The notes beneath the pieces are model-generated. The model was not told the origin of the DNA. It did not search any database and worked only from the letters and a program-made list of their open reading frames with translations. A program made the translations under genes and the position numbers. Source: Arenimonas maotaiensis (GTDB lineage Bacteria > Pseudomonadota > Gammaproteobacteria > Xanthomonadales > Xanthomonadaceae). Taken from it: a stretch of DNA of 64,000 bases. The stretch is taken from the NCBI RefSeq assembly GCF_014638745.1, contig NZ_BMFO01000003.1:1-64000 (forward strand). The letters are read 5' to 3'. This document shows, in pieces, positions 21,311-47,456 of this stretch (the first letter of the stretch is position 1; every line of letters starts with the position of its first letter).

Positions 21311-21655
21311 TTAAACTCCATGCATTAGGCGGATTGATACTGCAAAAAGCGGAAGAAACATAACCAGTGCAATAACCGCCAAACATCCTGAGCCTTTACC
21401 CCGATTACTGCTATAGCTTTCACGCTCATGTCGAGGACGGTCTTGAAGCCATTTCATATGGCAAGACTGACAAAAAAATTTGGTTTTTCCATTGCGCCAT
21501 GCCTCTGATGTCCGATCACTGTGCATGGAGAAAGAACGGCATCGTGCACATTTAAAAGATTTTTGAGGCGGCTTTCTTTTCGGAATCAACTTGGTCAGGA
21601 TTGAAAAACCAACAAATACAACCACTACGATTCCGAAAATCATTTCAGGGCTCAT
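21311..21655 (-). CDS. Small membrane protein with zinc-ribbon-like loop
   Basis: A 114-residue protein of unusual layout. An N-terminal membrane helix (IFGIVVVVFVGFSILTKL, residues 6-23) is followed by a basic linker, then four cysteines in CARC...CQSC spacing (about residues 36-70) that look like a zinc ribbon. A second membrane helix (CLAVIALVMFLPLFAVSI) lies near the C-terminus. I do not recognise the family. The gene and its 5' flank are visibly richer in A and T than the neighbours, suggesting acquired DNA. It is convergent with the GGDEF-EAL gene; its upstream region (21656-21755) is AT-rich and may hold its promoter. Confidence 0.65.
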   Translation of the reverse strand: MSPEMIFGIVVVVFVGFSILTKLIPKRKPPQKSFKCARCRSFSMHSDRTSEAWRNGKTKFFCQSCHMKWLQDRPRHERESYSSNRGKGSGCLAVIALVMFLPLFAVSIRLMHGV

Positions 21656-21755
21656 AAGCGAACCTACTTATACCTAACGGATATTGAGATATGAATAGGT
21701 CATTTAATCCTCTCAATCGCCTCGGGTCTATAAGAGTATTTCTTGGGTCCAAGCG

Positions 21756-38858: not shown

Positions 38859-40430
38859 TTACTGCCGCAACAGGGCATGCACGCGCAGGCCGCCGCAGTT
38901 GGCGATGCGGACCGCGCCGCCCAAGGCCAGAACCCGATCGCGGATGGAGTGGAAGCCGGCGCGGATCGCGGTTTCGTACACGCCGATGCCGTCGTCGCGG
39001 ATATCCAGCACCAGCACGATGCCGCGGCGGTTTACGCCCCGCCGGCCGACACGCAGGCGCACGCCGACCCGCCGGCAACGGGCGTATTTGACCGCGTTGT
39101 TGACCGATTCCTGCACGATACGGTAGGCCGCCAGCGCCGTGGCCGGCTGCAATTCGTTCAGCAGCATGCCGTTGCCCTGCAGCTCGACCTGGTAGCGGAT
39201 GCCGGCCAATTCGCACAACTGCGACGGCGAGCCGTAGACCAGCGATTCGTACAGGCCGATCTGGTTCAACTCGTTCGGACTCAGCGCGTTCACCACCGAA
39301 CCCAAGGACTGGCGCATGCGCGCGCCCAGGCGTTCGAGCGCGGCGATGTCGGGGTTGACCGCGGACTCCGCCAGCCGCAGCTGCATCGCGGTCAGCAGCT
39401 GGCCGAGCTCGTCGTGCAGCTCGTGCGCGATGCGCTTGCGTTCCAGCTCCTCCAGCTCGATGTTGCGCCGGCTCGATTCGGCCAGGGCCGACAGGGCTTC
39501 CTGCAGCGTGTTCTTGTCGGCCTGCAGCGCCGCTTCATTGCTCCGCAGTTCGTCGATGCTGGCGCCGAACAGCAGCGCCATCGCGGCCATAACCGCCATC
39601 ACCAGCTGCAGCACCACCGGATCATCGGCGCTGCCGTGCAGATGGTCGTCGATGCCGATCAGCGTGCTGACCAGGAGCATCGACAACGCCGTGCCGCGCC
39701 AGCCGTGGCGGAAGGAAAACACCACCACCAGCACCAGCAGGCATCGGCGCAGATAGCGATCGACGCCCTGCCCGGCGAAGAGCGCCATCGGCACCGACAG
39801 CAGCAACGCGATCGGCAGCAGCCAGACCAAACCGGCACGCAGGATTTTCGCCGTACCGGGCCGGTTCATCAAGCCGGTCAACCACAACATGCCGGGCATG
39901 ATCAGGATGATGCCGAGGAAGGCGCCCATGAAATGGTTGATGCCGTAATGCGCCAGCGCCGGCAGCGTAGGCGCTTGGGTTTGGACGGCGGCGGCGTGAC
40001 GGACGTCATCGCCGGACGGATGCCGGACGCCAAGCAGATCCGTCAGCATGACCAAGAGGGCGGTCAAGACGGCGGCCAGCAGCAGGTCGAGGATCCGCAC
40101 CGGCTTCACCATGGCGTCAAGGCCCATGCGGCGGGCGAGGAGCGCGCCGAGGAGCGCCGGCAAGGGCTCCAGGACCGCGCTTGGCAGATGCGGCCCGATA
40201 CCGCCGGCGGCGCCGGCGTCATCGAGCAGGCATGCCGCGGCGACGGCGGCGCAAAACCATGGCCAGTCACGGCCCGGCCTGGACCAGAACACCGCGAACA
40301 GCACGCCGACGCCGACGTACCAATGGCGGAAGCCGATCTGCAGGCAGAGCCAATAACCCGCCATCAACAGCAGGCAGGCCATGGCGGTTTGCAACGGACG
40401 GGAGCTCGCCGCGGGCGCGGTGGCAGACAT
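38859..40430 (-). CDS. NarL-type sensor histidine kinase with membrane sensor
   Basis: A 523-residue kinase. About eight hydrophobic segments in residues 15-290 form a MASE1-like membrane sensor. A coiled coil leads to the HisKA_3 dimerisation helix IAHELHDELGQLLTAMQLRL, with phospho-His at 339. The ATPase domain contains AAYRIVQESVNNAVKYARCRRV (N-box) and LDIRDDGIGV (D-box) and ends with FHSIRDRVLALGG. The ATG at 40430 is preferred; the frame is open further upstream into the divergent regulator. It is divergent from the LuxR-type regulator at 40542, its likely partner. Confidence 0.88.
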   Translation of the reverse strand: MSATAPAASSRPLQTAMACLLLMAGYWLCLQIGFRHWYVGVGVLFAVFWSRPGRDWPWFCAAVAAACLLDDAGAAGGIGPHLPSAVLEPLPALLGALLARRMGLDAMVKPVRILDLLLAAVLTALLVMLTDLLGVRHPSGDDVRHAAAVQTQAPTLPALAHYGINHFMGAFLGIILIMPGMLWLTGLMNRPGTAKILRAGLVWLLPIALLLSVPMALFAGQGVDRYLRRCLLVLVVVFSFRHGWRGTALSMLLVSTLIGIDDHLHGSADDPVVLQLVMAVMAAMALLFGASIDELRSNEAALQADKNTLQEALSALAESSRRNIELEELERKRIAHELHDELGQLLTAMQLRLAESAVNPDIAALERLGARMRQSLGSVVNALSPNELNQIGLYESLVYGSPSQLCELAGIRYQVELQGNGMLLNELQPATALAAYRIVQESVNNAVKYARCRRVGVRLRVGRRGVNRRGIVLVLDIRDDGIGVYETAIRAGFHSIRDRVLALGGAVRIANCGGLRVHALLRQ

Positions 40431-40541
40431 CGGATTCACGCCGGGAAAACGAAGGGATGCCACGCAGTCTAGCCTGAAAGCGCACGGCCGTGACCGGAAT
40501 TTTCCGCGCGGCGCGCGGCAAGCCGCGCTACCATAGGCGGC

Positions 40542-41147
40542 ATGATCCGCATCGTGCTCCTGGATGACCACGCCATCGTCCGCGAAGGCATCAAACGCCT
40601 GCTCGAGAACGAGCCGGACATGACCGTGTGCGCCGAATGCGGAACGGTCAACCAGGCCCTGAGCCACCTGCAGCGCTTCGGCCCGGACGTGCTGGTGGTC
40701 GACATCAGCCTGGCCGAGGGCAACAGCTTTTCACTGGTCGAAAACCTGGCCAAGGCCGGCATCGGGGTCAAGGTGCTGATGCTCAGCATGCACGACAGTC
40801 CGGCCTTCGTCGGCAAATCGCTGTCGCTCGGCGCCGCCGGTTATGTGACCAAGGCCGCCGCCGCCAAGGAACTGGTCTCGGCCCTGCGCCGCATCATGGC
40901 CGGCGACACCTACGTGTCGAGCGACATCCGTCGGCCGGCGCCTTCGGTCGCGCCGAAACTGACCCAGCGCGAGTCCGATACGCTCAAGCTCCTGCTGCAG
41001 GGGCTGTCGGCCAAGACCATCGCCGCGCGCCTGGGCATCAACGACAAGACCATGTACGGCCATCGCGCCAACATCATGCTGAAGCTGCAGGCGCGCGATC
41101 TGACCGACCTGCAGGAAAAGGCGGTGCGCCTGGGTCTGCTGGATTGA
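40542..41147 (+). CDS. NarL/LuxR-type response regulator
   Basis: A 201-residue regulator. The receiver has the acidic pair Asp8-Asp9, phospho-acceptor Asp54 (LVVDISLAEG), Ser in LMLSMHDS and Lys in GYVTKAAA. The C-terminal LuxR helix-turn-helix reads LTQRESDTLKLLLQGLSAKTIAARLGINDKTMYGHRANIMLKL. It is divergent from the kinase at 38859 across 111 bases. The closely following frame at 41148 begins one base after its stop and may belong to the same transcript. Confidence 0.93.
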   Translation: MIRIVLLDDHAIVREGIKRLLENEPDMTVCAECGTVNQALSHLQRFGPDVLVVDISLAEGNSFSLVENLAKAGIGVKVLMLSMHDSPAFVGKSLSLGAAGYVTKAAAAKELVSALRRIMAGDTYVSSDIRRPAPSVAPKLTQRESDTLKLLLQGLSAKTIAARLGINDKTMYGHRANIMLKLQARDLTDLQEKAVRLGLLD

Positions 41148-41501: not shown

Positions 41502-42715
41502 TCGATCCGGGCGACGGGAACCGGAACCCAAGGCCGGTCCGGATTTTTTTCGCCGATCAGCTTGGCTTTGTTGCTGCCCCAACAGTAGATTTTCAGGCTG
41601 CGGCCGAGCGCACAGGTGCTCCACTCGTTGGGCGCGATTTCCAGCGCCGGCTCCGGAAGGGTCACCGGCCGCGGACGGGTGACCGCCGGATAGCGGCGGG
41701 TGTCCTGCCCCGCGCCGCCGAATTCGTTGTAACCCCAGCAAGACACCCGGCCGCCGGAATCCAAGGCGCAGGTATGGCTGGCGATGGCCAGCTGCACGAT
41801 ATCGGCCAACCCCGGCACGCGCGCCGGCCGGAGGCGGCGGTCGTCCTCGTACGGGTGTTCCGGGCCGTTGCCCAATTGGCCTTGGCCGTTCCAGCCCCAG
41901 CAATACACCCGCCGGCTCGCGCCGATGGCGCAGGTATGCATGTAGCCAGCGGCCACGCGGGTGATTTTTTCCGGAAGATGGCGGACTTTCACCGGCGCCA
42001 TCCGGTCGATGGTCGAGCCGTCGCCCAACGCGCCGTTGGCATTGAAGCCCCAGCAATACACGGCGCCGGAAACGCCGACGGCGCAGCCATGATGGACGCG
42101 GAACGACAAGTGGCTGGCGGGTTCCGGCAGCGGCATGCGTTGCGGCGTGCGCAGCACCTTGAACTCGCGCGAGCGCAGCCGGCTGTTGCTGCGGCCGACG
42201 GTTCCCCAGCAATACACCGCGCCGTCGCGGATCAGGGCGCAGCTGCCGTCGTAACCGGAAGCGATGCGTACCGCCCTGCCGATGCCCGGCACCGGCTGCG
42301 GCCTGACGATGGTGTTGGTATAGGAGCCGCCGTCGCCCATCTGCCCCATGCTGGCATCGCCCCAACACCAGATACGGGCATCGTCGGCGACACCGCAGGT
42401 ATGGCCGTTGCCGCCGGAAAGCATCCGGAAGGCGCGTGACAGACGTACCCGCTGCGCCGGCGGAATGGCCAGGATCGGGTCGGCGATGATCTGGTCCCAG
42501 GTATTGTTGCCCCAGCAGACCATGGCGCCGCCGCGGCTGCGGTAGCACAGATGGTTGGTACCGGGGTTGAGGTACCGGGTGGCCGGTTCGAGCATGGCAT
42601 GCGACGTGGCGGCGGACGCGGGTCGGCCGCCATCCGGCCGGTGAAGCCAAGCCGACAGGAATACCCCCAGAAAAACGGCCAATGCCGCCAGAATCAGGAT
42701 GGCCGCGCGTTTCAT
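41498..42715 (-). CDS. RCC1-like seven-repeat propeller, membrane-anchored or exported
   Basis: A 405-residue protein. After an N-terminal hydrophobic segment (residues 4-21, AAILILAALAVFLGVFLS), seven RCC1-type repeats follow. Each has a conserved pair of cysteines in the pattern C-x9-C-W-G: for example CALIRDGAVYCWG, CAVGVSGAVYCWG and CALDSGGRVSCWG. Seven repeats fit one closed seven-bladed propeller with a disulfide per blade, so it should work outside the cytoplasm. Eukaryotic RCC1 is a nucleotide exchange factor, but bacterial versions are of unknown role. Its ATG overlaps the stop of the upstream kinase gene (ATGA), so both are made together. It may sense or bind a ligand for that kinase. 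Confidence 0.88.
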   Translation of the reverse strand: MKRAAILILAALAVFLGVFLSAWLHRPDGGRPASAATSHAMLEPATRYLNPGTNHLCYRSRGGAMVCWGNNTWDQIIADPILAIPPAQRVRLSRAFRMLSGGNGHTCGVADDARIWCWGDASMGQMGDGGSYTNTIVRPQPVPGIGRAVRIASGYDGSCALIRDGAVYCWGTVGRSNSRLRSREFKVLRTPQRMPLPEPASHLSFRVHHGCAVGVSGAVYCWGFNANGALGDGSTIDRMAPVKVRHLPEKITRVAAGYMHTCAIGASRRVYCWGWNGQGQLGNGPEHPYEDDRRLRPARVPGLADIVQLAIASHTCALDSGGRVSCWGYNEFGGAGQDTRRYPAVTRPRPVTLPEPALEIAPNEWSTCALGRSLKIYCWGSNKAKLIGEKNPDRPWVPVPVARID

Positions 42716-44295
42716 CGGGCGGGCATCCGGAAATGGAAGGCCATCTTCTTGAATTCCGGACACAGGCAATGATGGAAGCGGCCGCCCAGATCGGCGCCGG
42801 TCGCCATCAGGTTCTTCAGGCCCATCGAATCGACGCGGCGGAAATCGTAGTAATTCGCGGTGTCGCTGTCGCTGATGGAAATCACCACATAGCTGCCACC
42901 ACTGTTTTGCCGGGCCAACAGCTGGATGCGGCAACGCCCGGCGCGGCTATGGCGCAGCAGATTGGTCACCGATTCCTGACAGAAGCGGTAGATGAAGCGC
43001 CAGTGCACGGCGTCCAACTCGTGCCAGGCCGGCGAATGCGGGCTGACCAGAAGCCGGTAGTCGATGCCCGACGCCTTCAGCAGCATCGCGATGCGGCCGA
43101 CGGCCAGCTCGGCGTGGATGGCGCCGAAATCGATGTGCTCGTCGGCCAGCTTGTTCAGTACCGCGCGCATGCGTTTTTCCGCGTACTCCAGCATTTCGGA
43201 AGCCTTGCCGGCCGCCTCCAGCGCGCCGGGATCCTGCGTCCGACCCTGAAGCACGCGCATGTACAGGTTGGCGGCGACCAGGCCCTGGCCGACGTCGTCG
43301 TGCAGGCTGCGGATGATGCCGTTCACGTATTCGGCGTTGCGCGCCTCCAGCGACAGCTCCAGCTCCTGCAGGTTGCGGATCAGGTTGCCTTCGCGCTGGG
43401 CCGACTGCAGCAGGCTGCGTTCCGAGGCGCGCATGCGCTCGGCGTAGATGGCCGTGAACAGGCAGCTGACGGTGAACAGCAGCAGGTACATGGCATTGGC
43501 ATGCCAGGTGTTGAGCGACCAGCCGTTGTGGGCCGCGGAAAACAGCACGATGCACATGAAACTGACCGCGATGGCCGGCATCCGGCCGTAACGGAACGAG
43601 AAATACACCGAACCGAGCAGGAACAGGACCAGGAACAGGAAGACCACCGACAGGTTTCCGGACAGGTCGAACAGCCGGTACATCAGCGCCAGAACCGCGA
43701 GCGGCAACAGCGCCATGACGAGGGTGGCGGCCGCGCGCCCGGGAATGACGCGCGGCCGCGCCCTCGCGAATACCGCATAGATGCCGAACAGCAGGGCCGT
43801 GGTGACATAGACGTTGAGCCGCGCGAAAGCGGCGCTGACCAGATAGGATGGTTCGCCGCCGGCCGACAGGTATTCGGCGAGCACGACGGCGGCGCCGGTA
43901 CCGGCCGACAGGGCGGCCAGCACCGTGCCCAGCGCGAGCGGTGCGCGTTCGATCCGGCTGCCGATACGGTCGATGTACGCGCGCAACAGCCAGGCGCAGG
44001 AATAGGTTGCCGCAACGCCCGCGCCATGCACGAACAGCGTCTCCGGATTGAAGGCGCCGACATAGGGAAACAGGCGCTCGTACGGATTCAGCGCGACCAG
44101 CGCCAGCTCCAGCAACGCGACGACCGGGTAATACGCCGGCCGCAGGTTGAATACCGCATAGACACGCAGGCCGAACAGCACGCTGACATAGACGCCCTCG
44201 ATGTTCAGCGCCATGAACAACGGCAAGCTGGCGAGGGCCAGGGCCGGCCAAAGCCAGATCGGATGGGAGGCCGTCACGGCCCGGATTTTTTCCAT
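42712..44295 (-). CDS. Membrane sensor histidine kinase with degenerate ATPase D-box
   Basis: A 527-residue kinase with about eight hydrophobic segments (residues 14-285), then a coiled coil and the HisKA_3 motif RSLHDDVGQGLVAANLYM with His332. The ATPase domain keeps the N-box (FCQESVTNLLRHS) and G-box (MGLKNLMATGADLGG). The D-box, usually DNGxG, reads ISDSDTANYYDF, so nucleotide binding may be altered. The start is uncertain: ATGs at 44319, 44313 and 44295 are in frame, and 44295 follows GGAATG. It is divergent from the regulator at 44381 and overlaps the RCC1-like gene downstream. Confidence 0.85.
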   Translation of the reverse strand: MEKIRAVTASHPIWLWPALALASLPLFMALNIEGVYVSVLFGLRVYAVFNLRPAYYPVVALLELALVALNPYERLFPYVGAFNPETLFVHGAGVAATYSCAWLLRAYIDRIGSRIERAPLALGTVLAALSAGTGAAVVLAEYLSAGGEPSYLVSAAFARLNVYVTTALLFGIYAVFARARPRVIPGRAAATLVMALLPLAVLALMYRLFDLSGNLSVVFLFLVLFLLGSVYFSFRYGRMPAIAVSFMCIVLFSAAHNGWSLNTWHANAMYLLLFTVSCLFTAIYAERMRASERSLLQSAQREGNLIRNLQELELSLEARNAEYVNGIIRSLHDDVGQGLVAANLYMRVLQGRTQDPGALEAAGKASEMLEYAEKRMRAVLNKLADEHIDFGAIHAELAVGRIAMLLKASGIDYRLLVSPHSPAWHELDAVHWRFIYRFCQESVTNLLRHSRAGRCRIQLLARQNSGGSYVVISISDSDTANYYDFRRVDSMGLKNLMATGADLGGRFHHCLCPEFKKMAFHFRMPAR

Positions 44296-44380
44296 ATCAA
44301 TACATTCCAGCATCTGCATGGAATCGGCTATAAGAATTTTTCTAATACCAAAACTCGCAGGTCTACCGCATCATGGCGCG

Positions 44381-44977
44381 ATGAGCCTCATTACGCTACT
44401 GGAAGACCACTCGATTGTCCGCGATGGATTGCGATACCTGTTGGAACAGGAAGGCCATCGGATCGAAGCGGAGTTCGGCGACCCGGACGATCTGTTCCGG
44501 CGTATAGGCGAACTCCGGTCAGACATCCTGATCACCGACCTGGATTTCGCCAACTACAAATTCACCGCGATACTGGAACATCCGGCCCGCATCACCGAAC
44601 GCTTCCGGACCATCGTGCTGTCGATGCACACCGGGCCGAACGTGGTGCGCCAGGCCATCCGCCAGGGCATCGCGGCCTACGTCAGCAAGGGCCGCGGCGC
44701 GCAGGAGCTGCTGTCGGCCGTGCAGGCGGTGGAGCGCGGCCAGCCCTATTTCTGCGACGAGGCGCGCAAGGCGGCCGACAGCCACAGCCCGCACATCACC
44801 CCGCGCGAGCGCGAGGTGCTGGAACTGCTGGTCGCCGGACTAAGTCCGAAGGATGTCGCCAAAAAACTCGGCATCTCCGACAAGACGGTGTACGTGCACC
44901 GCATCAAACTGCTGCAGAAGTTCAAAGCGCGCTCGGTGTTCGAGCTGCAAAGCCGGGCCCGCGAACTGGGCATATGA
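44381..44977 (+). CDS. NarL/LuxR-type response regulator
   Basis: A 198-residue regulator. The receiver has Glu8-Asp9, phospho-acceptor Asp53 (ILITDLDF), Ser in IVLSMHTG and Lys in AYVSKGRG. The LuxR domain reads ITPREREVLELLVAGLSPKDVAKKLGISDKTVYVHRIKLLQKF. It is divergent from the kinase gene at 42712 (85-base gap), its likely partner. Only four residues of the output domain end follow LQSRARELGI before a strong bidirectional terminator. Its architecture and length match the AT-rich gene at 45185. Confidence 0.92.
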   Translation: MSLITLLEDHSIVRDGLRYLLEQEGHRIEAEFGDPDDLFRRIGELRSDILITDLDFANYKFTAILEHPARITERFRTIVLSMHTGPNVVRQAIRQGIAAYVSKGRGAQELLSAVQAVERGQPYFCDEARKAADSHSPHITPREREVLELLVAGLSPKDVAKKLGISDKTVYVHRIKLLQKFKARSVFELQSRARELGI

Positions 44978-45002
44978 AAAAGCCCCGCTTGACGGGGCTT
45001 TT
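44976..45002. terminator. Bidirectional terminator
   Basis: AAAAAGCCCCG and CGGGGCTTTTT form a strong hairpin around CTTGA, with A- and T-runs on both sides. It overlaps the stop of the response-regulator gene. It also lies 8 bases beyond the stop codon of the rpoH remnant on the minus strand, so it was probably the original rpoH terminator. Confidence 0.88.
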
Positions 45003-45009
45003 TGATGAA

Positions 45010-45078
45010 TCAGGCCGCCAACAGCGCCTTCATTTCCTTCAACCAATTGGCCTCGAACTGGTGGATACGCTCGGCCGA
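45010..45078 (-). pseudogene. Remnant of the rpoH 3' end (22 codons)
   Basis: Read on the minus strand, these bases code for SAERIHQFEANWLKEMKALLAA and a stop. The intact rpoH ends in a 22-residue segment that matches it at 17 positions (differences: H/R, F/L, W/A, E/K, L/F). No start or other sigma-factor sequence remains. The remnant keeps the stop codon and lies next to a strong terminator, so it marks where rpoH once ended. The AT-rich gene lies between it and the current rpoH. Confidence 0.85.
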
Positions 45079-45130
45079 CCATGGGTTACTTTTTGTTACT
45101 TAATTTAAACCGAACCTAGAAAAAATCCAA

Positions 45131-45146
45131 TATTAATCGATTAATA
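45131..45146. promoter_or_regulatory. 16-bp palindrome upstream of the AT-rich gene
   Basis: TATTAATCGATTAATA is perfectly self-complementary and lies 38 bases before the ATG at 45185. Its position suits an operator for a dimeric regulator, possibly the gene's own product. Further CGATT motifs follow at about 45160-45176. Confidence 0.4.
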
Positions 45147-45184
45147 AAGCGAACAAAATTCGATTTATTTTCGATTAAATTTAA

Positions 45185-45775
45185 ATGATAAAGATATGTA
45201 TTTTTGCAGAAAAATTTAAATGTGAAATAAAATCTATACTTTCAAATAATCGTGAAATCACGATAATTCATGAGGATCAAAGCCCTTGCTTTTCATCGCT
45301 TTCGCTTTCACATTCCTCCGATTATATTTTATTATTCGAAGCATATTCGGATTCTTTCCTTGAAAAGGATTTTCAAGTTTTGAAAGAGACTTTGAGCAGC
45401 AACATCAATCTTAAGGCTGTCATTATCTATGACCAGATTAATAATCTGTTTATTAAAAAATTGCTTGATGCTGGAGTTTTTGGATTTGTTGAATATAGTC
45501 AAATCAATAACAAATTGATCTCTGCGTTACATCGTGTCTTTTGCGGATACTATTATCTTAACAATGACTTGAAATCAGCTGTTTTCAAAAAAAGACGAGC
45601 ACTTAATTATGTAGAATCGCAAGTTTTAAAATTGCTTTTAGATGGTGAAAATGCCCAGCAAATTTCCCATAAAATCAATATCGAAATTAAAGACACTTAC
45701 ATTATTCGTGCGCGCTTAATGGAAATATTTGAGTCAAATAATTTAAATGAACTGAAAAATAAAGTAACTAATTAA
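45185..45775 (+). CDS. LuxR-type protein with degenerate receiver, AT-rich
   Basis: A 196-residue protein with the length and layout of a NarL-type regulator. The C-terminal part (ALNYVESQVLKLLLDGENAQQISHKINIEIKDTYIIRARLMEIF) aligns with LuxR helix-turn-helix domains. The N-terminal part aligns with receivers, but the key residues are missing. The phospho-acceptor Asp is replaced by Glu52 (ILLFEAYSD), the acidic pair is reduced, the Ser/Thr is Tyr (VIIYDQ), and the Lys is Tyr (FVEYSQ). It is therefore probably not switched by phosphorylation; Glu may mimic the active state. Codon use is extremely AT-biased, unlike all neighbours, and no ribosome-binding site of usual form is seen. It lies inside the insert between the two rpoH ends. 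What it controls is unknown. Confidence 0.8.
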   Translation: MIKICIFAEKFKCEIKSILSNNREITIIHEDQSPCFSSLSLSHSSDYILLFEAYSDSFLEKDFQVLKETLSSNINLKAVIIYDQINNLFIKKLLDAGVFGFVEYSQINNKLISALHRVFCGYYYLNNDLKSAVFKKRRALNYVESQVLKLLLDGENAQQISHKINIEIKDTYIIRARLMEIFESNNLNELKNKVTN

Positions 45776-45788
45776 TCAAACTGCTGTA

Positions 45789-46667
45789 TCAAGCAGCAAA
45801 GAGCGCCTTCATCTTCTTCAACGCGTTGGCCTCGAGCTGGCGGATGCGCTCGGCGGAGACGCCGTATTCCTCGGCCAACTCGTGCAGCGTGGCCTTGTTT
45901 TCGGCCAGGAAACGCTTCTGCAGGATCTCGCGCGAACGCGGATCGAGGCCGGCCAGACCGTCGCGCAACAGCTCCAGCTGGCTGTCTTCGTGGCTCTCGC
46001 GCTCGTAGGCGGCGGCCGGATCGGCATTGACCGCGACCAGATAGGCCGACGGCGACGGCGGCGCATGGTCGTCGTCGTCGTCATCCGGCGCGTCGAAGGC
46101 GACATCGCGGCCGGACAGGCGCGATTCCATCTCCAGCACCTCGCGTTCGGACACATTCAGGTCCTTGGCCACGGCCGAGACTTCGGCGGCGTTCAGCCAG
46201 CCCAGGCGCTTCTTCGATTTGCGCAGGTTGAAGAACAGCTTGCGCTGGGCCTTGGTGGTGGCCACCTTCACGATGCGCCAGTTGCGCAGGATGAATTCGT
46301 GCATCTCGGCGCGCACCCAGTGCACGGCGAAGCTGACCAGGCGCACGCCCTGGTCGGGGTCGAAGCGCTTGACCGCCTTCATCAGGCCGATGTTGCCTTC
46401 CTGGATCAGATCGCCCATGCCCAGGCCGTAACCTTGGTAGCCGCGGGCCACGTGCACCACGAAGCGCAGGTGCGCCATCACCAGATGGCGGGCGGCGTCG
46501 AGGTCGTCGTTGTCGCGGTAGGCGCGCGCCAGCTTCTGCTCGTCCTCGACCGACAGCACCGGCACGCGGCTGACCGCGTTGATGTAGGCGTCCAAGGAAC
46601 CGAGGGCGCTGGGAATCGGCAGATTGTGGCTGATCAGGGCTTGGCTGGTCATGGCGTTCTCGTTCAT
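45789..46667 (-). CDS. rpoH: RNA polymerase heat-shock sigma factor (sigma-32)
   Basis: A 292-residue sigma-70-family factor. LGMGDLIQEGNIGLMKAVKRFDP is region 2.2, VSFAVHWVRAEMHEFILRNWRIVKVATTKAQRKLFFNLRK covers regions 2.3-2.4 and ends with the RpoH box (QRKLFFNLR). The C-terminal helix-turn-helix reads TLHELAEEYGVSAERIRQLEANALKKMK. An Asp-rich linker near residue 195 is unusual. A CIRCE-type repeat lies 9 bases before the ATG. The normal terminator appears to be separated from this gene by the AT-rich insert; only a weak CTGCT/AGCAG hairpin follows the stop. Confidence 0.96.
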   Translation of the reverse strand: MNENAMTSQALISHNLPIPSALGSLDAYINAVSRVPVLSVEDEQKLARAYRDNDDLDAARHLVMAHLRFVVHVARGYQGYGLGMGDLIQEGNIGLMKAVKRFDPDQGVRLVSFAVHWVRAEMHEFILRNWRIVKVATTKAQRKLFFNLRKSKKRLGWLNAAEVSAVAKDLNVSEREVLEMESRLSGRDVAFDAPDDDDDDHAPPSPSAYLVAVNADPAAAYERESHEDSQLELLRDGLAGLDPRSREILQKRFLAENKATLHELAEEYGVSAERIRQLEANALKKMKALFAA

Positions 46668-46676
46668 GGGTTTAGT

Positions 46677-46703
46677 CTAGCACTCTAGCGATTAGAGTGC
46701 TAA
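46677..46703 (-). promoter_or_regulatory. CIRCE-like operator before rpoH
   Basis: CTAGCACTC-N9-GAGTGCTAA on the plus strand differs from the CIRCE consensus (TTAGCACTC-N9-GAGTGCTAA) at one base. CIRCE is the site of HrcA, a heat-shock repressor. It lies in the 5' leader of rpoH, 9 bases before the start codon, so HrcA binding would block transcription, and the RNA hairpin could cover the start. A TATAAT on the minus strand (46765-46760) is a likely -10 about 57 bases upstream of the repeat. Confidence 0.82.
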
Positions 46704-46775
46704 TCGGCCCGGAAAGTTCCCCGAGATCGGCTTTGATGACCTGGAACAAGAAATATTCAATTATAAATCAATGAA

Positions 46776-47456
46776 TTATGGAATACGCCAATCTATCGCC
46801 GGCTGGCCGCGGCCCTGCAAGTAGCGGTTGGCGGCGGAAAAATGGCCACAGCCCAGAAAGCCCCGGTGCGCCGACAGCGGCGAGGGATGCGGCGCGCGCA
46901 GGATGCAGTGGCGGTTGCGATCGATTTTGACGCCCTTGGCCTGGGCGTAGGCGCCCCAGAGCATGAACACCAGTCCTTCACGGCGGTCCGACAGCGCCCG
47001 GATGGCGGCGTCGGTGAATTCTTCCCAGCCCTTGCCTTGATGCGAGCCGGCTTTGCCGGCTTCCACGGTCAACACGGCATTGAGCAGCAGTACGCCGCGG
47101 TCGGCCCAAGGCGTGAGGTTGCCGGTGGCCGGCATCGGCAAGCCCAGATCGCGCGCCTGTTCCTTGAAGATGTTCTGCAGCGAGGGCGGCGGCGGCACGC
47201 CGTCCGGCACCGAGAAACTCAGGCCATGTGCCTGGCCCGGGCCGTGGTACGGATCCTGGCCGAGGATGACCACCCGCACCGCCTCGAACGGGGTGTGGTT
47301 GAAGGCGTTGAAGATGAGCGGACCGGGCGGATAGACCGCTTTGCCCTTGGCCTTCTCGGCGCGCAGGAACGCGGCCAAGGCCTGCATTGGCTCGGACGCC
47401 AAGAGGCCGCCGAGATGCGGCTGCCAGGAGTCGGACAAGCGACCGTCGACGCTCAT
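46776..47456 (-). CDS. ung: Uracil-DNA glycosylase
   Basis: A 226-residue family-1 enzyme that removes uracil from DNA as the first step of base-excision repair. VVILGQDPYHGPGQAHGLSFS contains the catalytic Asp68. GVLLLNAVLTVEAGKAGSH is the uracil-recognition strand, and APHPSPLSAHRGF is the DNA-intercalating loop with the catalytic His. The start ATG overlaps the stop of the dual-receiver gene (ATGA), so it is the last gene of the ftsE-ftsX unit. The intergenic region after it carries the rpoH promoter. Confidence 0.97.
   Translation of the reverse strand: MSVDGRLSDSWQPHLGGLLASEPMQALAAFLRAEKAKGKAVYPPGPLIFNAFNHTPFEAVRVVILGQDPYHGPGQAHGLSFSVPDGVPPPPSLQNIFKEQARDLGLPMPATGNLTPWADRGVLLLNAVLTVEAGKAGSHQGKGWEEFTDAAIRALSDRREGLVFMLWGAYAQAKGVKIDRNRHCILRAPHPSPLSAHRGFLGCGHFSAANRYLQGRGQPAIDWRIP

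Follow-up and report, generated by a model that had tools for sequence, protein, structure and literature searches.

A NarL/LuxR-type regulator with a degenerate receiver pocket in an AT-rich segment at the rpoH end of Arenimonas maotaiensis

The gene at 45185-45775 (+) in a 64,000-nucleotide stretch of the Arenimonas maotaiensis genome (contig NZ_BMFO01000003.1, positions 1 to 64,000; hereafter the window) encodes a NarL/LuxR-type regulator of 196 amino acids whose former phosphorylation pocket now reads Ala8, Glu9, Glu52, Tyr82 and Tyr104. The explanation that accounts best for this gene, and to which we give about an even chance, is that it is an imported pseudo-receiver regulator under constraint to keep its fold, which recombined in at the end of rpoH and which would be independent of phosphorylation if expressed. 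The explanation builds on the loss of the pocket, the hydrophobic pattern of the protein, a duplication of the rpoH end and the foreign composition of the segment, together with a predicted fold, and from these we infer a donor, expression, DNA binding and a partner.

Residue changes and profile matches

The frame begins at an ATG, and it is unlikely to be a product of chance: in 5000 random sequences of matching neighbour frequencies, the longest stop-free run had a median of 64 codons, a 99th percentile of 121 and a maximum of 210, as against the 196 codons of this frame. Alignment of the product with 15 NarL-type relatives, taken from the same genome and from sister genomes, reveals that the conserved NarL/FixJ pocket of two acids, Asp, Ser/Thr and Lys has been lost. 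The phospho-acceptor position, which is Asp in all 15 relatives, is occupied by Glu52, while Tyr82 stands at the switch Ser/Thr position (Ser in 15 of 15) and Tyr104 at that of the conserved Lys (Lys in 15 of 15). The first acid of the pocket has become Ala8 and the second is still acidic as Glu9, an assignment that assumes a correct ungapped start of the alignment; Phe101, three residues before the conserved Lys position, is a retained aromatic. A preliminary description of this DNA had named a LuxR-type regulator with Glu52 in place of the phospho-acceptor Asp, and Tyr in place of both the switch residue and the Lys, and the alignment bears out each of these replacements. On these residues, the receiver should not be phosphorylatable.

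The resemblance of the protein to NarL-type regulators is weak by profile and firm when judged by pairwise search and by the fold predicted for its receiver half. The profile search suggested in the preliminary description for both domains returned no Pfam match to the receiver model PF00072 at E<=1, and the helix-turn-helix (HTH) model GerE was matched only below threshold, at 15.2 bits against a cut-off of 23.5. The best NCBIfam model is EvgA (36.4 bits; cut-off 251), EvgA is also the best sequence match in the PDB (E 3.5e-7), and the RcsA model gives a weak match of 17.4 bits over residues 114-169. Pairwise search against three sister-genome regulators yields E values of 7e-18, 5e-17 and 2e-16.

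Predicted fold and structural constraint

The AlphaFold2 model, computed from a four-sequence alignment (mean pLDDT 81.6, pTM 0.75), has five strands together with the helices of a receiver, and after these come the HTH helices. Its least certain part is residues 31-40, where helix 2 is expected (block mean pLDDT 58), and the predicted HTH helices at residues 141-196 score 84-92 per ten-residue block. Glu52 lies near the end of predicted strand 3 (E47-53), as expected for the phospho-acceptor position. In a VIA-align comparison, which spans mainly residues 1-135 and barely covers the HTH half, the receiver half is aligned with the RcsB receiver (6zil) with a Z of 17.8 and an rmsd of 1.9 over 128 residues, and the receiver fold on which the preliminary description depended is thus predicted. 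Foldseek ranks full-length regulators of the NarL family first, among them LiaR, RcsB, VraR and EvgA, and places VpsT and CsgD under the canonical NarL proteins; TM-scores over the full length reach no more than about 0.4 to 0.6, with large rmsd, and these structures therefore do not match the model in how the two domains are placed relative to each other. By sequence and model, the protein would be a pseudo-receiver in the sense of a receiver fold without the phospho-Asp and other catalytic residues, whereas the authors of PMC12632262 and PMC4395418 define pseudo-receivers as proteins recognised by a receiver profile, and Pfam PF00072 does not recognise this one.

Conservation was counted against 14 of the 15 relatives, with a distant paralogue (row L005) excluded. 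The relatives have 44 near-invariant columns, at 43 of which the protein has a residue, and it keeps the near-invariant one at 6 of 22 positions in the receiver, the single position in the linker and 10 of 20 in the HTH. Asp170 (for Thr) and Ile174 (for His), both in the predicted recognition helix, are among the ten altered HTH residues. This erosion of the HTH, with its sub-threshold GerE match and changed recognition-helix residues, counts against the favoured explanation. The hydrophobic pattern has fared differently, as 49 of 55 hydrophobic columns are still hydrophobic and only 16 of 74 polar columns have turned hydrophobic. When a sister gene was drifted neutrally, stop-free, to the same identity as the protein, 49 of 55 was reached in 3 of 3000 runs (means 37.1 to 40.5), and on average 25.4 to 30.9 polar columns became hydrophobic versus the 16 observed. 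These runs consist of a first batch (0 of 500) and five settings of 500 runs each (0, 2, 0, 1 and 0), the first setting being a repeat of the first batch with a different seed. Because the hydrophobic core is kept beyond nearly all neutral runs, the protein most likely evolved while its fold mattered, in the present host or in the donor, and the kept core may reflect selection in the donor rather than in the present host. Homologues with a normal Asp had been named in the preliminary description as the sign of a decaying copy; all 15 homologues have the Asp, while the kept core speaks against simple decay. Its further suggestion that Glu52 might be conserved in a family has gained no support, no relative with Glu52 having been found.

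Composition of the insert and the duplicated rpoH end

The GC content of 45081-45790 is 28.9%, in a surrounding region that is mostly 64-71%, and falls to ~20% in the leader of the segment (45079-45184). The regulator gene has a third-position GC of 0.28; rpoH has 0.89, and the two regulator genes nearby have 0.82 and 0.89. Elsewhere in the 64 kb, 150-nt intervals drop below 45% GC only at 21351-21750 (minimum 37%) and at 46651-46800 (minimum 43%). The AT-rich, foreign-looking setting beside an intact NarL-type pair and rpoH, as first described, is therefore confirmed. The former of the two other islands holds a 114-aa ORF (21311-21655, minus strand; minimum 37% GC in 150 nt) which, as read by eye, has a hydrophobic stretch near both ends and a CxxC...CxxC zinc-ribbon-like middle, and for which PHROG gave nothing at E<=0.1 and NCBIfam nothing convincing.

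To the left of the insert lies a NarL-type response regulator with an intact pocket (44381-44977, +), divergent from a HisKA_3 histidine kinase (42712-44319, -) that is presumably its partner. To the right, and convergent with the insert's regulator gene, lies an intact rpoH of the sigma-32 type (45789-46667, -), whose last codons, TTT GCT GCT TGA, look AT-adapted. The window contains two divergent HisKA_3 kinase/NarL-type regulator pairs within ~6 kb, the other being 38859-40592 (-) with 40542-41147 (+), and both pairs have relatives in sister genomes.

The insert is flanked by a direct repeat of the rpoH 3' end, 76 nt long and 80% identical (61 of 76 matches; at most 38 in 200 shuffles). The left copy (45003-45078, -) reads RIHQFEANWLKEMKALLAA-stop, and between it and the 44381 regulator lies a GC-rich terminator-like hairpin (44974-45006) with 14-nt arms that are 93% complementary. 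The right copy (45782-45857, -) forms the present end of rpoH and is overlapped by a weak terminator-like hairpin, the only one in the stretch where 1.1 are expected by chance. Over the outer 22 nt, matches to the rpoH ends of three sister loci (L029 to L031) number 18, 18 and 16 for the left copy and 13, 13 and 14 for the right, whereas over the inner 54 nt it is the right copy that is closer, with 46, 46 and 46 matches versus 41, 43 and 43. Nine further genomes gave a left copy closer in 7 and tied in 2 over the outer stretch, and a right copy closer in 8 over the inner stretch, the left being closer in 1 (L032, 42 vs 41). Such a pattern is the expected residue of an insertion at the rpoH end, and the right copy is the working tail of rpoH, while the left has the look of the native tail, displaced together with its terminator; subsequent decay of this left copy might alone account for its lower inner likeness to the sisters.

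Repeats of the rpoH end thus surround the insert in the way looked for at the target end of an integrative element. The insert itself carries a single long ORF, with no integrase, transposase or phage genes, and its product has no PHROG match; a search of the insert against its own genome gave no second match. A possible terminal inverted repeat, GTTACTTT, falls within one of the 21 inverted pairs of the AT-rich stretch and was for this reason not counted as the terminal repeat of a mobile element.

Three promoter-like sites were found where 2.6 are expected, all of them within the ORF and none upstream of its ATG, and no ribosome-binding site before the ATG is recognisable by eye. The leader carries a perfect 16-bp palindrome (45131-45146) and the window's only four TCGATTWA words, a candidate operator by sequence, both elements of which were picked after inspection. 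The palindrome is modest, being reached in 55 of 2000 random leaders, and the repetition of 6-mers and 7-mers in the leader does not rise above chance, being matched or exceeded in 1419 and 1150 of 2000 random leaders, respectively. The 12-bp core of the palindrome occurs once in the whole genome, which at such a base composition is no surprise. That the gene works in its present host is, in our estimate, close to a coin toss.

Relatives and the search for a donor

Among 61 genomes (the host's own included), the protein is matched best, at 26-30% identity, by regulators that lie next to rpoH in the sister genomes G024, G013 and G001, to which the three E values above belong in this order. These regulators lie on the same side of rpoH and in the same orientation toward it as the insert's gene, at a distance of ~170 bp in G024 and ~3.3 kb in G013 and G001; unlike that gene, they have an intact pocket, native GC and, in each case, a divergent histidine kinase as neighbour. 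The 3' flank of rpoH varies among the sister genomes. The ~3.3-kb stretch of G013 contains open frames that, read by eye, resemble a zinc or manganese transporter, and in G024 the sequence between regulator and rpoH (L031, about 2550-2739) resembles the C-terminal end of a transporter permease of which G013 has the complete frame (L029, 4592-5419), and this suggests a deletion in G024.

A 24-row tree, from which 9 of 17 GerE proteins (from three genomes) were omitted as duplicates of rows present, places the protein in one group (88/87) with the 44381 regulator and the three from the sister genomes, while a 16-row tree groups it with those three alone (93/96). The two trees therefore disagree on the 44381 regulator, which is joined with the protein in one of them. 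Since the branch of the protein is very long (3.9 changes per site) and its composition odd, the trees are taken to support membership of the subfamily only.

Outside the host genome, no relative was found at E<=1e-13 in 398 genomes of the order and 369 of the class, or at E<=1e-9 in 398 of the phylum; these overlapping sets each count the host genome, and weaker kin may exist below the bars applied (1e-13 for order and class, 1e-9 for phylum, and 1e-6 for, e.g., the 61 genomes). A pattern search with the protein alone gave 55 matches in genome contigs and 2 in viral contigs, none confirmed as a relative. With an alignment of four proteins, 5 of 100 pattern matches in genome contigs proved to be the three sister loci and two distant matches, and none of 80 in viral contigs was confirmed. 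Plasmid (24) and phage (5) records gave partial matches only, all below 60% identity and none spanning 80% of the query. The genome sets thus held no close homologue, and the genome, plasmid, phage and viral-contig searches no low-GC donor; a literature search on Arenimonas horizontal transfer and response regulators found no related report.

Comparison with known regulators

RcsA, BglJ and WhiI are LuxR-type proteins of ~200 residues, and RcsA and BglJ are not known to have a working phospho-site. They are auxiliary NarL-type partners: RcsA and BglJ are described as each acting with RcsB (PMC5829831), and WhiI as pairing with BldM, with a hypothetical pairing of CmrT with CmrR (PMC12632262). 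In sequence, the protein resembles this group only weakly, by the RcsA-model match given above. The canonical NarL-FixJ regulators EvgA, UhpA, NarL and RcsB agree in domain order and fold with what is predicted for the protein and differ in the phosphorylation pocket that it has lost.

Aspartate-less receivers, estimated to make up ~4% of the receiver domains in all life, and pseudo-receivers, put at ~6% of bacterial receivers in one count and ~13% of prokaryotic ones in an earlier inference (all in PMC12632262), include ChxR, RitR, HP1043 and CmrT, which combine a receiver fold lacking normal phospho-acceptor chemistry with a DNA-binding output domain, as the protein studied here is predicted to do. 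These four are described as OmpR/PhoB-type regulators, unlike this NarL/LuxR-type one. Glu is the commonest substitute in such receivers, as it is the substitute here, whereas the loss of the first acid and retention of the second, if the alignment start is right, reverses the pattern reported as usual for pseudo-receivers (PMC12632262). Intrinsic dimerisation and control by amount is given there as a mode of action for phosphorylation-blind regulators, and the on/off switching of bacterial pseudo-receivers is called a mystery.

Proposed origin and mode of action

The gene would have been acquired horizontally and, though strongly diverged, be related to the rpoH-linked NarL-type response regulators of this lineage. 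Its source would be a low-GC genome with the same regulator beside its own rpoH, from which the kinship as well as the AT-adapted tail of rpoH would follow. Recombination at the rpoH end would have brought in the gene together with a low-GC rpoH 3' tail, which rpoH then took as its own, leaving the native tail and terminator displaced to the left. One possible route combines homologous exchange within rpoH at one end with illegitimate joining at the opposite end, and homology-facilitated illegitimate recombination is a process that has been described. The protein would keep its receiver and HTH fold and be unable to serve as a normal phospho-acceptor; if expressed, it would most likely act without phosphorylation, with its activity set by the amount made, either as a homodimer or as the auxiliary partner of an intact NarL-type regulator in the manner of RcsA or WhiI. 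The 44381 regulator is a candidate for such a heterodimer, as one of the two trees places it in the same subfamily, and an intact regulator next door makes this pairing a natural one to test.

Alternative explanations

The main rival, a real if minority prospect in our judgement, is that the import is silent or dying: the gene would have worked in an AT-rich donor, have come in by accident with the rpoH tail and now be expressed little or not at all, with decay setting in. The sub-threshold Pfam scores of receiver and HTH alike would be in keeping with this, as would the altered DNA-reading residues, the ATG with no promoter-like site upstream and the failure to find any relative in the order, class and phylum sets at the bars given above; the unbroken frame of 196 codons argues the other way, and so does the hydrophobic core, for which selection in the donor is a possible source. 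Origin within the genome, through a local tandem duplication of regulator and rpoH 3' end followed by drift of the second copy to AT-richness in place, would yield the observed order of 44381 regulator, rpoH tail, second regulator and rpoH tail, and it agrees with the tree in which the two regulators are joined. We nonetheless think it improbable, as it leaves unexplained 710 bp at 28.9% GC and a still poorer leader amid GC-rich surroundings, in a window with only two other intervals below 45% GC.

The two remaining alternatives concern how the protein works. A constitutively active regulator with Glu52 as a built-in phosphomimetic is suggested by the prevalence of Glu at this position in aspartate-less receivers, where it is the commonest residue at 26% (PMC4395418), and by reports that Glu mimics phosphorylation in some regulators, 'perhaps' through contacts to the conserved Thr/Ser and Lys (PMC12632262). 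Here, the Ser/Thr and Lys expected to bind Glu are both Tyr, and for this reason the phosphomimetic is quite unlikely; the natural Glu of ChxR, moreover, is reported to be dispensable for DNA binding (PMC4395418). The 'permanently active' reading of the preliminary description is weakened accordingly. A receiver turned ligand or redox sensor, comparable to VpsT (c-di-GMP) or RitR (redox), is very unlikely in our estimate: VpsT and CsgD do appear among the fold matches and the receiver is the most altered part of the protein, with 6 of its 22 near-invariant residues identical, but canonical NarL proteins outrank both of these matches and no ligand-binding motif was noticed by eye.

Conclusions

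Phosphorylation-blind regulators are a known kind, and the interest of the imported pseudo-receiver proposed here lies in its route of arrival and the extent of its divergence. At this locus, a sigma-factor gene appears to have received a new tail and terminator through the import of a single gene, with the old tail remaining as a readable scar. This mode of arrival has no place in the preliminary description. The pseudo-receiver now beside an intact NarL-type regulator and kinase provides a natural set for testing control through a partner. A bolder extension of this proposal, which we consider a long shot, is that a regulator moved between species with an rpoH tail, came to lie beside its own counterpart and now acts on the resident two-component system as a phosphorylation-blind partner, either co-activating or dominant-negative, with the leader palindrome as a possible operator. 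If true, it would show a canonical response regulator in the course of becoming an RcsA-like auxiliary one.
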